Shown here one piece after another: positions 8,155 to 11,428 of a stretch of 34,880 nt of DNA. The DNA comes from Secundilactobacillus similis DSM 23365 = JCM 2765 (GTDB lineage: Bacteria > Bacillota > Bacilli > Lactobacillales > Lactobacillaceae). The position numbers and the translations under genes are program-made. The DNA lies in assembly GCF_001311075.1 (NCBI RefSeq), contig NZ_BBAD01000030.1, positions 1 through 34,880 of the forward strand, given 5' to 3'. Every line of letters begins with the position of its first letter. Position 1 is the first letter of the stretch. The notes beneath the pieces were generated by a model. The model did no database searches. It worked only from the letters and a program-made list of their open reading frames with translations, and had not been told where the DNA came from.

Positions 8155-9682
8155 TTACTTCTCCTCGCCAACCATCAACAACTGCTCCCGCAACTGCGGC
8201 CGCAACACCTTACCCGTAATGTTCCGGGGGAATTCTCTCAGAAATTCAACCCGGGTTGGGCTTTCGAACTTGGCCAGATGAGTGGTTGAGTAGTCGAAAA
8301 TGGCTTGGCGTTGTTCGGCTTCGTTGAGGCCGGGGGTGGTGCTGACCACCACGGCGGTGACTTCTTCACCGTACAGGTCGTCTGGCATGCCGATGACGGC
8401 CAGTTGTTCGATGAAGTCGAGGTCGTTCAAGGTGTTTTCAACGGCAGCTGGCGCAACTTTTTCACCACCGCGGGAGATGATCTCCTTCTTGCGGCCCTTG
8501 ACGAACAGGTAGTTGTCATCGTCCAAATATCCCAGGTCGCCAGTTAAGAACCAGCCATCCTTGAAGCTATCGGGATTTGGATCCATGTAGTGGGTGATGA
8601 CGTGGTTGCCGCGAACGGCGATTTCGCCCATCACGTTGTGGTCGTTGGTGAGTTCACCGTCGACTAACAGGCAAAGGTCGGTGCCAAATGGCTTGCCGGC
8701 TGAGCCAATCTTGGGCGCGTCAAATGGTTGATCGTGCATTGACTGGAAGCTTCGGTCATGCCGTAGCCTTCAATGATTGGGGCACCAAAGCGGTCTTGGA
8801 ACGCAATTAAACGTTCTTCAGGGAGCGCAAACGAGCTGGAACGGATGTAGCGTAAGTGAATACCGTCTTTCAAGGCATCGTAAGCGGCGTTGGCCTTTTC
8901 GTTTAGTAACAAGAAGGAAACGATGGTTGGGACCACTGAAACCCAGGTGACATGGTTGTCGTGAACTTGCTTCCAGAAACGGGAAGCGGAGAACTTCTGG
9001 GTAACGAGGACCTTACCATCAGAAACCCGGGTCGACAACGTCGTCATGACTTGGGCGTTGATGTGGAACATTGGCATGGTGACCATGGCAACGTCATTTT
9101 CGTCCATGTGGTTAGAAACGGCGTCGTTCTGAGCGGCATTTAACAGCATCTCGTGCGTTAAACCGACTCGCTTGGGTTCACCAGTAGTTCCGGAAGTGTT
9201 CATCACTAAGCCAAGGTCGGTGGCGCTCACGGGCGTGGTATCGGCTTCGGTTTTGGCGGCTTCCTTGTTGACCAAGAACGTTAAGTGGGGCGACGTCAAC
9301 AGGTCTAAGTGGCTCACAGACCACTCGTCAGTTGACCAGTCAGCGGCGAGCTCCGGCGTGGTGAATAGCGCTGGGTAGCGTGGGCCTCGTAATCCGCGTG
9401 TAATTTCGCGGTTGGCGTTGATGGTGAGATGGGGTGGACAATGATGCCCAGTTCCCAAGCCGCTTGGTTGATCACCGGGAAAACGGCGGAGTTGGGTAGG
9501 CAAACCAGAATCTGATCCCCTTTCCCAAGGTTGTTGGCTTTAAATGCTTCTTGGAACACGTCGATATCCGCCTGCATATCGGCGCCGGTAAACCAGGTGT
9601 TCATGGCCTCATCCTTAATGATGGGGTCCGTTTGGTGACGCTGAAGTTGTTCCGTTAAAATCGTAGTTAATGGTGTGGCCAT
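8155..9682 (-). CDS. Acyl-CoA synthetase (AMP-forming, FadD/Acs-like), two frameshifts
   Basis: Activates a carboxylic acid to acyl-AMP and then acyl-CoA. Repaired length about 509 residues, typical of the ANL superfamily. The order of motifs is complete: N-terminal domain with ILVCLPNSAVFPVINQAAWE; phosphate loop NTSGTTGEPKRVGLTH; YGMTEAS; DGWFLTGDLGYLD; hinge KGRKKEIISRGGEKV; and catalytic Lys in NITGKVLR. Two one-base losses break it: near 9385 (between ...LHADYEA and ...YPALFTTPELAAD) and near 8740, where CAATGC should be CAAATGC, giving S-S-Q-M-H-D-Q-P. AAAGGAG lies upstream of the ATG at 9682. The substrate is unknown; oxalate, medium- or long-chain acids are all possible. Two lesions could mean a true pseudogene, but the motifs are undecayed. 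Confidence 0.8.
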
Positions 9683-10007
9683 AAAATGAATCGCTCCTTT
9701 AATAATGAGTAGTCGGTTTCAATGACTCGGCAAATTTAATTGGTTTTGTTTGATGTCATGAGTAATAGCCTAGGCGAGTTAACTTAAATCAGGCTTAAAG
9801 GTTAGCAAAAGATGATTACCGAGGGTACTTTTTCTTATTATAGACAGCCATTTTCGACTTGACTAGTAGTTAATGGGAAAAAGATGAGAAAAGGTGACTA
9901 ACATCTCACTATACTATCGCATATTGAGACGTTTAAAACTGGAACTGAGACTTCAAATTCTGAAGATTAGTACAGTTGTTGGGAAATGTCTGCTGAAACT
10001 GTCGATT

Positions 10008-10189
10008 CCGGTAGGCGGTCAGGTTCCGGCTATGGGGACCGGCCTGAGCCAAAAGGCGGTCTCAGCCCTCGCATTGAAGCCTCGCTAAAATCGTGCGAGT
10101 CTTCAATGACGTCCCCGATAATTGATAGTTGTTGGGAAACCACCAACAACTATCAATTATCGCGCCACAGCCGGAACCTGACCGACCGG
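10008..10189. other. Nested inverted-repeat element (candidate structured RNA or MITE)
   Basis: Five stems fit inside each other. P1: CGGTCAGGTTCCGGCT (10016-10031) with AGCCGGAACCTGACCG (10169-10184), 16 bp perfect, extended by CCGGT/ACCGG. P2: GGGGAC (10034-10039) with GTCCCC (10111-10116), enclosing P3 (CTGAG 10044-10048 / CTCAG 10061-10065) and P4 (CATTGAAG-C-CTCGC 10072-10085 / GCGAG-T-CTTCAATG 10095-10108). P5: 19-bp perfect palindrome arms 10117-10135 and 10143-10161. AGTTGTTGGGAAA also occurs as a direct repeat at 9974-9986 and 10127-10139. No gene overlaps it. It lies in the 600-base gap between the citrate synthase terminator and the acyl-CoA synthetase. The rest of the gap (9683-9990) is AT-rich with no gene I can support. 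Confidence 0.65.
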
Positions 10190-10248
10190 TTGTGCCCACA
10201 ATATCAGCCATGATTAACGCGGCAAAGAAGCCAAACTTCACAAGCGAC

Positions 10249-10284
10249 AATAAAAAGCCCTGAAGCATTTTGCTCCAAGGCTTT
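10249..10284 (-). terminator. Terminator of the aconitase-citrate synthase operon
   Basis: Minus strand AAGCCTTGGAGC, loop AAAAT, GCTTCAGGGCTT: a 12-bp stem (two G-U pairs) followed by TTTTTATT. It lies about 10 bases beyond the repaired citrate synthase stop at 10294, which supports the extended C-terminus. Confidence 0.85.
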
Positions 10285-10293
10285 CAAGCGCTA

Positions 10294-11428
10294 TTAGCCA
10301 AAATTCACATGATCCGTAACACTAGCATCAGTCCCACGGTCACCCGCAATCACATAATGCCGCCCAGTCGGCCCATCATACACGGATGACGGACGAATCA
10401 AGCAACCTTCGCGTTGCTGTTCCAAGATGTGGCTAACCAGCCAGCAGTCCGGCAGGCCGCGAACATTGTGGTGAAGGTGGCTTTGTCCAGTCCGAGACAG
10501 TGGTAAATCAAAGCGGTGTAGTAGTCAACGTTGGGATGCAACCCGATCCTGTTTAACATCTCCGCCGCCAACGCTTCCTGCAGGTCAAACAGCGCTTGGT
10601 TATCGGTCGAAGCCGCTAACCGAGCCGCAACTCCGCGGAGAATCTTCGCCCGTGGATCACCATGCTTATAGACCCGGTGTCCGAAGCCCATAATCTTCTT
10701 ATGAGCGCCCAGTTTCTCGTCAACGTACTCAGACGCGGTCAAGTGCCGCCGGTTGATGTCCATCAACATGTTATACACCTGTTCGTTAGCGCCACCGTGG
10801 AGCGGACCCTTCAACGCGCAGACAGCTGCGGTCAAGCAAGAGTAGTAGTCCGACTTAGTAGAAGCCACCACCCGACTGGTAAAGGTCGAGGCGTTAAATT
10901 CGTGGTCGGCGTGCAGCACCATCACGGTGTTGAACATCGCCGTGGCCTCAGCGTCAGGCCGTTTGCCAGAGAACAGGTAGACAAAGTTTTCCACCACGCC
11001 CCAGTTTGGATCGGCGTGCAGTAGTGGCAAGCCGTCGCGGATGCGGATGATGGCCGCAATCGCTGTCAGCATTTTCGCCAAGATTTTGGTCGGCGTATCG
11101 CGGTCCACGTTGTTGGTGGTGCCTAACAGTGAGGTCGTGGTGCGCAGGATACTCATGGGGTGCTGAGGTTCTTTCGCAATTTCAGTGATCAAGCGCACCG
11201 TTTCGTTTGGCAACTGCATGTTGGTCACGAGTTGTTGGCGAAAAGTCGCCAGTTCATCTGGTTCTGGTAACCGGGTATGCCACAACAGGAAGACCACTTC
11301 TTCAAATGGCGCGTGTTGCAGTTCTTCAATTGGGTAGCCGCGTAAGTGAGGTGGGCGTTTTTAGTGGAGCTGATCTTGGTGGTATCGATGACGACGCCAG
11401 CCAGTCCCTTTGGTAAAGTTTGAGTCAT
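10294..11428 (-). CDS. gltA: Citrate synthase, two one-base frameshifts
   Basis: Condenses oxaloacetate and acetyl-CoA to citrate in the cytosol. Family signatures are GPLHGGANE, GFGHRVYKHGDPRA (catalytic His) and LHADHEFNASTF. Two single-base losses interrupt it. Near 11341, GCGGCTAC should be GCGGGCTAC, giving Y-A-G-Y-P-I-E-E-L. Near 10432, TTAGCCACATC should be TTAGCCCACATC, giving W-L-A-H-I-L-E-Q, after which the frame runs to TAA at 10294-10296 (...LIRPSSVYDGPTGRHYV...). Repaired length is about 378 residues, normal for CitZ/GltA. The start is ATG 11428 after AAGAGGTG. It follows aconitase by 30 bases in one operon and ends at a strong terminator. It likely feeds 2-oxoglutarate/glutamate synthesis rather than a full cycle. 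Confidence 0.88.

Follow-up and report, generated by a model that had tools for sequence, protein, structure and literature searches.

A gene-free patch in the Secundilactobacillus similis genome is probably a worn copy of a dispersed repeat that carries a conserved multi-stem fold

Results

The locus and the fold of the patch

The window analyzed here is positions 1 to 34,880 of contig NZ_BBAD01000030.1 of S. similis DSM 23365 = JCM 2765, and the patch of interest is a gene-free gap between an AMP-binding enzyme gene on its left and a citrate synthase gene on its right. The AMP-binding enzyme gene (8155-9682, minus strand) is split over three overlapping open reading frames, which match the N-terminal and middle part (PF00501) and the C-terminal part (PF13193) of the enzyme, and it therefore looks frameshifted or mis-sequenced. 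The citrate synthase frame (10296-11297, minus strand) starts at position 43 of the profile, and near 10296-10400 a different frame encodes what we take, by eye, to be a typical-looking citrate synthase C-terminus, so this gene, too, may be broken.

The first-pass annotation had described the gap as a set of nested stems, namely an outer stem, a GGGGAC/GTCCCC-closed arm with two hairpins inside it, and a palindrome, and all of these were located (Table 1). Together they form a module of approximately 150 nt, a four-stem junction composed of the outer stem P1, the hairpins P2 and P3 within a GG..CC-closed arm, and the hairpin P4. The outer stem of the window copy is paired at 16 of 16 positions, with a single mismatch when it is extended to 20 nt, whereas mismatches occur in the outer stem of many other copies (copies elsewhere are described below). 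The claim that the fold lies beyond chance also held: the plus strand of 9900-10250 was predicted to fold at -144.5 kcal/mol, compared with -92.2 (sd 5.8) for its shuffles (z -8.97), and the minus strand at -160.6 kcal/mol compared with -102.2 (sd 5.3; z -11.02), and on either strand none of 100 dinucleotide shuffles was as stable. A simple terminator or a known riboswitch was rejected, in agreement with the first-pass annotation, as Rfam gave no match at the gathering threshold in the window or in 12 loci of this genome, and tRNA only in nine loci of other species; below that threshold there were only weak scores (E up to 10).

Table 1. Features of the patch and of its right-hand border, in window positions
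Feature	Position	Strand	Remark
Left module, homologous block	9991-10171	+	88% identity over 183 columns to copy C37:18344; one of 91 cores
Outer stem P1, CGGTCAGGTTCCGGCT	10016-10031 pairs with 10169-10184	+	Perfect over 16 bp; 95% over 20 nt
Match to covariance model R1	10021-10179	+	76.3 bits, E 2.8e-20; R1 built from other genera only
Junction helix GGGGAC / GTCCCC, closing P2 and P3	10034-10039 / 10111-10116	+	Read from the sequence
Hairpin P2, GGCCTGAGCC ... GGTCTCAGCCC, with unpaired T	10041-10068	+	Most conserved part
Hairpin P3, with conserved C·T mismatch and covarying outer stem	10070-10111	+	
Hairpin P4, the palindrome of the first-pass annotation	10116-10135 / 10143-10162	+	20-bp arms, 100% complementary
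Type B right end of the element, linked to the left module	10178-10245	+	
Terminator-like hairpin of the citrate synthase gene, AAAAAGCCCTGAAGCATTTTGCTCCAAGGCTTT	10250-10290	-	Adjoins the right end; read by eye

The boundaries proposed earlier, 10008-10189, enclose the stems and are too narrow for the element, since homology to longer relatives takes in both the left-module and the right-end block of Table 1. The right end of the window copy aligned over 66-68 columns, at 88-94% identity, to approximately positions 597-675 of four longer copies (C37:18344, C4:4720, C27:10461 and C14:37455), and the approximately 460 bp that these copies hold between left module and right end are absent from the window. 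The patch is thus probably a dispersed-repeat copy with an internal deletion, as judged from the alignment. No left inverted end could be recognized in it and the right module is absent; therefore, the window copy is probably immobile.

We also considered the earlier suggestion that the inner arm and the palindrome were separate insertions nested in an older repeat, which was based on the recurrence of AGTTGTTGGGAAA at 9974 and 10127. The recurrence was confirmed, but it looks like chance and needs no nested insertion, because the copy at 9974 occupies, by eye, the place of the left arm (AGTTTGTGAAATG...) of other copies. Furthermore, nearly all aligned copies, including those of other genera, have both arm and palindrome and have them in a constant order, which argues against separate insertions; a few copies are shortened (C36:6273 in this genome, L158 and L186 elsewhere).

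A repeat family in the S. similis genome

The first-pass annotation had proposed a whole-genome copy count as a check, and had counted a lack of other copies, if joined to a complete lack of transcription, as a refutation. A core pattern from the module, allowing up to three mismatches, was found at 91 places in the S. similis genome and its reversed control at none, so that copies exist elsewhere, and a search with the element gave at least 40 places at 81-100% identity, the window included (40 of 121 candidates were scored). The assembly comprises 3.45 Mb in 176 contigs; for many of the fetched copies a contig end is no more than a few hundred bases away, and the repeats appear to break draft assemblies.

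Similarity in uncut copies typically extends from about -110 to a point between +620 and +820 relative to the start of the core, and inverted repeats, GTCGYTTGTGTCCAGCGTAAGCAT and its complement, stand at both ends of the element. Counted by their inner 18 bases with up to three mismatches, these ends occur 136 and 134 times in the two orientations, compared with 2 and 0 for the control. Thirty copies have both ends, 29 of them 699-905 bp long and one of 307 bp. No open reading frame of 100 or more amino acids was found within L053:7577-9088, the one copy for which frames were listed.

The copies lie mostly just after the end of a gene. Of the 83 copies with a called gene on the left, 65 had that gene directed toward the element, and the left ends often stand, by eye, just past a terminator-like hairpin and T-run. 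A flanking gene was taken, crudely, to be the longest open reading frame close by, and 48 of the 91 copies lacked a call on at least one side; the 43 with both flanks called were convergent (22), same-direction (14 and 6) or divergent (1). Transcription may be affected by repeats in this position.

The second module of the elements in this genome is of other types, which were recognized by eye. The type A right module (in copies such as C5:33022 and C7:57712, at about +540 to +760 from the core) is GC-rich and multi-stem and is unlike the left module, while type B resembles the module without P2. Three 318-bp elements (L206:3484-3801, L207:3784-4101 and L209:3243-3560) have the inverted ends of the repeat around a different large palindromic module, and L217:1784-2212 consists of a left inverted end and the start of a right module with no left-module core, which suggests that modules may be gained or lost separately.

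Pairing is conserved while stem sequences turn over

Homologues that failed to conserve pairing had been named beforehand as the outcome that would speak against a structured element. To examine pairing across species we used a covariance model, R1, for which 13 of the 32 initially aligned modules served as seed, none of them from Secundilactobacillus, because MAFFT alignments misregister P3 and P4 in some groups; P3 is still misregistered in some rows of the seed. Among 146 distinct aligned matches, seed modules included, both sides had changed at 41 of 44 pairs, and double changes occupied 1014 cells, compared with 291 (sd 17) after shuffling and at most 193 when partners were slid, in an alignment that was fitted to the model and so favors pairing. 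In S. similis itself, 83 copies in a structure-free alignment gave 252 double Watson-Crick changes, counted on a hand-drawn structure because the RNAalifold consensus fold missed most stems. Thus, pairing is kept by compensatory change across genera while the letters of the stems turn over.

The stems differ in how strictly they are kept. The outer stem of P3 is perfectly complementary in 65 of 76 ungapped S. similis copies; P4 is perfect in 67 of 77 copies in its outer part and in only 19 of 82 in its inner part, the core of P1 is perfectly complementary in 33 of 77, and the three counted G-C pairs of the junction helix are retained in 77, 78 and 79 of 83 copies. Several unpaired features are conserved as well, namely a P2 loop of the form NAANNGC, the unpaired T in P2 and the C·T mismatch in P3.

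Perfect stems of this kind might arise without selection on the fold, if the module were passive cargo and intrastrand template-switch correction at replication kept its palindromes perfect, so that covariation would reflect a habit of repair. The outer stem of P3 would suit such a process, with 11 distinct perfect arm pairs in S. similis and with 784 Watson-Crick cells beside no G·T or T·G cell. However, correction would tend to erase the P2 loop, the bulged T and the C·T mismatch, which are conserved across genera; moreover, one model finds the module in 12 genera and the mismatches that do occur are strand-biased (see below). We therefore consider passive cargo improbable.

Distribution in Lactobacillaceae and beyond

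When S. similis and 40 relatives were searched with the pattern at up to two mismatches, it was present only in S. similis and one congener, which we take to be Secundilactobacillus odoratitofui. The exact pattern was found in at least 61 stretches of a named genome collection, and among the matches listed 56 were from Lactobacillaceae (Companilactobacillus, Levilactobacillus, Lacticaseibacillus, Lactiplantibacillus, Secundilactobacillus and Lactobacillus sp.) and five from elsewhere. In nearly all of these 56 the outer stem is followed by P2, P3 and P4 in turn, and three stretches (L158, L180 and L186) are shortened or degenerate; between genera the outer stems differ in sequence and the pairing stays. 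The five listed stretches from outside the lactobacilli were rejected as members, as they lack the fold: R1 gave 19.9 bits on P2 alone in one of them (L181) and nothing at E 0.01 in the others.

With R1, at least 62 of 251 Lactobacillaceae genomes, S. similis included, and 12 of 40 genera gave a match, a lower bound because 12 candidates per genome were scored under strict filters. Among 250 genomes of the class Bacilli, which included S. similis and at least one other member of the Lactobacillaceae, only S. similis matched. The 162 matches from 66 sources (E up to 0.01) often form oppositely oriented pairs separated by a few hundred bases, and such pairs are frequent in Levilactobacillus and S. 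odoratitofui, among others. L. brevis CD0817 holds 159 core motifs (up to three mismatches; control 0). A phage or plasmid origin was rejected: the exact core did not occur among 2.9 million viral contigs of IMG/VR, blastn with a full-length copy and with an L. brevis element gave no plasmid or phage match, and a Companilactobacillus huachuanensis element gave the sole match, 79 bases in a Limosilactobacillus reuteri plasmid near an IS30 gene.

Which strand is folded

An A·C mismatch on the plus strand is a wobble pair on the minus strand, and the two mismatch classes are unequal. In the other species, 37 columns that are at least 70% Watson-Crick (5032 cells) hold 101 A·C or C·A against 43 G·T or T·G mismatches on the plus strand; in the S. 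similis copies the 62 columns passing the same threshold hold 79 against 37. All hand-drawn columns of these copies hold 218 against 77, a count that a few columns sway. As the copies are related and not independent, the asymmetry could be inflated. The minus strand, which also has the better predicted energy, thus seems to be the one that folds.

These data fit a folded single-stranded DNA or a folded RNA alike and do not separate the two. The module could be a functional RNA made from the minus strand, such as an sRNA, a 3'-UTR stabilizer or a protein-binding RNA, that has been spread by transposons and is selected as RNA. The conserved unpaired letters in the loop and bulge of P2 and at the P3 mismatch are consistent with such a role, as are an asymmetry that favors one folded strand in two data sets and the placement at gene ends. 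However, wobbles are rare, at 43 of the 5032 cells if the plus strand is folded or 101 if the minus strand is; in a small control set of 14 distinct tRNAs they made up 18 of 314 pairs, though the brackets there may show standard pairs alone. In addition, two oppositely oriented modules are present in many elements, many S. similis copies stand, by eye, behind terminator-like hairpins, and the 56 listed Lactobacillaceae loci share no neighboring gene. Selection for an RNA is accordingly a reading that we regard as doubtful.

How the element may move

The first-pass annotation had named a mobile element as one candidate, and the 91 cores, the inverted ends and the target duplications in a related genome support this. 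The duplications come from C. huachuanensis, where the ends CTAAAGGTTGAAAG occur 234 and 231 times in the two orientations with at most one mismatch (control, 3 and 2) and where exact duplications of 7-9 bp flank 15 of 30 neighboring end pairs at 28 fetched loci; shuffled end pairs gave a mean of 0.66 and at most four in 2000 trials. Target duplication above chance was not found at 33 end pairs of S. similis, and none was seen at 10 pairs from Levilactobacillus.

An IS4-family transposase (NF049925) matches at four places in C. huachuanensis, on C1, C3, C28 and C30, and at none of them was an intact single frame seen across the whole model. At up to three mismatches, CTAAAGGTTGAAAG ends flank three of these places on both sides; the fourth lies close to a contig end and has only the left one. 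The module was absent, by R1, from all four; that transposon therefore does not need it, and the module-bearing elements of C. huachuanensis look like its passengers. Transposition marks together with an IS4-family transposase that has the same ends were observed in this one species. Six long end spacings there, from 100 of the 465 ends, enclosed ordinary genes or modules, except for one (L234), in which fragments of a disrupted IS4-family transposase were found. At L140:6699-7863 and L159:5900-7424, elements seem by eye to lie side by side or nested.

No mobilizing transposase was identified in S. similis, whose genome lacks NF049925. Across the Lactobacillaceae, NF049925 was found in 19 of 62 module-bearing and 16 of 189 other genomes (P 6e-5; related genomes are not independent in this test or in the next), yet it is missing from 43 of the 62, and the IS4 family was rejected as the general mover. 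We likewise rejected an autonomous element whose gene would lie between paired modules, as none was seen and grouping of the open reading frames over the 56 Lactobacillaceae loci gave no common neighbor; the largest group covers nine loci, and its leader is presumably an ABC-type ATPase.

We next consider a REPIN-like element, in which a Y1 (HUH) transposase acts on the folded single strand. Genes for Y1 (PF01797, matched at E 1e-10, with RAYT proper and IS200-type Y1 counted together) are enriched, at 27 of 62 module-bearing compared with 42 of 189 other genomes (Fisher P 0.0017), and S. similis is among the 27. Such an element would also suit the paired inverted hairpin modules, one hairpin of which has an unpaired T, the placement at gene ends, and the fact that target duplication was not found in Secundilactobacillus or Levilactobacillus. 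However, 35 of the 62 module-bearing genomes gave no Y1 match, including S. odoratitofui (G004), which has at least 12 modules, so that Y1 was rejected as the general mover; size and fold differ from those of REP, and C. huachuanensis shows target duplications. This makes a Y1-driven element highly unlikely.

Discussion

Our preferred reading, to which we give a probability of roughly 0.58, is that the patch represents one worn member of a family of mobile, non-autonomous repeats that carry a conserved single-strand fold. The element would be moved through its ends by a trans-acting transposase in each lineage; the module would be a single-strand hairpin, most likely of the minus strand, that a protein recognizes during mobilization or upkeep, perhaps much as REP and REPIN hairpins are recognized. 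We rank a mobile element with a protein-read hairpin above a structured RNA spread by transposons, and the latter above palindromes maintained by template switching. A bolder version can be offered only tentatively: the four-stem structure, and not its sequence, might be the signal, some protein would read the folded minus strand, and the repeats would form a new, apparently chromosome-confined mobile class of lactobacilli, the same structure having passed, in at least three lineages, into elements whose ends are unrelated.

The repeat looks like an undescribed kind of gene-less jumping structured element; a search of open papers by title and opening of the abstract found no description of it. 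It adds an abundant repeat class with no Rfam match (159 cores in L. brevis CD0817 and 91 here) to otherwise well-studied food bacteria. A structure kept under fast sequence turnover also offers a testable system in which folded single-stranded DNA, RNA and upkeep by replication error can be set against one another.

Comparison with known repeat systems

The repeat resembles miniature inverted-repeat transposable elements (MITEs) in being short, apparently gene-free and present in many copies and in having inverted ends (in S. similis, at the 30 two-ended copies and the three 318-bp elements), and in C. huachuanensis also in its target duplications and in the IS-related loci with the same ends. 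It differs from MITEs in that its multi-stem module is conserved among elements with unrelated ends in different genera and in that target duplication was not found in S. similis.

With REP, BIME and REPIN sequences it shares paired inverted hairpins, placement at gene ends and many copies, features of REP that are in part described in PMC3733652. The REP unit is a 20-40-bp hairpin, whereas the module has about 150 nt and four stems, and a Y1 transposase is missing from 35 of 62 module-bearing genomes; the text of PMC3733652 contains no word that begins with Lactobacill.

Previously, bcr1 was described in the Bacillus cereus group as a clade-restricted, many-copy repeat of 147-167 bp (PMC2267715) with mobile-element features and a predicted fold (PMC6542083, PMC2267715), and it resembles the present repeat in these respects. 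It belongs to a different clade, and R1 matched none of the 249 other Bacilli genomes sampled; the comparison with bcr1 is one of descriptions. Lac-1 of Lactobacillus johnsonii, compared by description only, is also a stem-loop-containing repeat family of a lactobacillus, but it is tabled as genic in PMC2267715. The nearest kinds are MITEs, REPINs and bcr1, and the repeat fits part of the MITE definition and departs from REPINs in two features.
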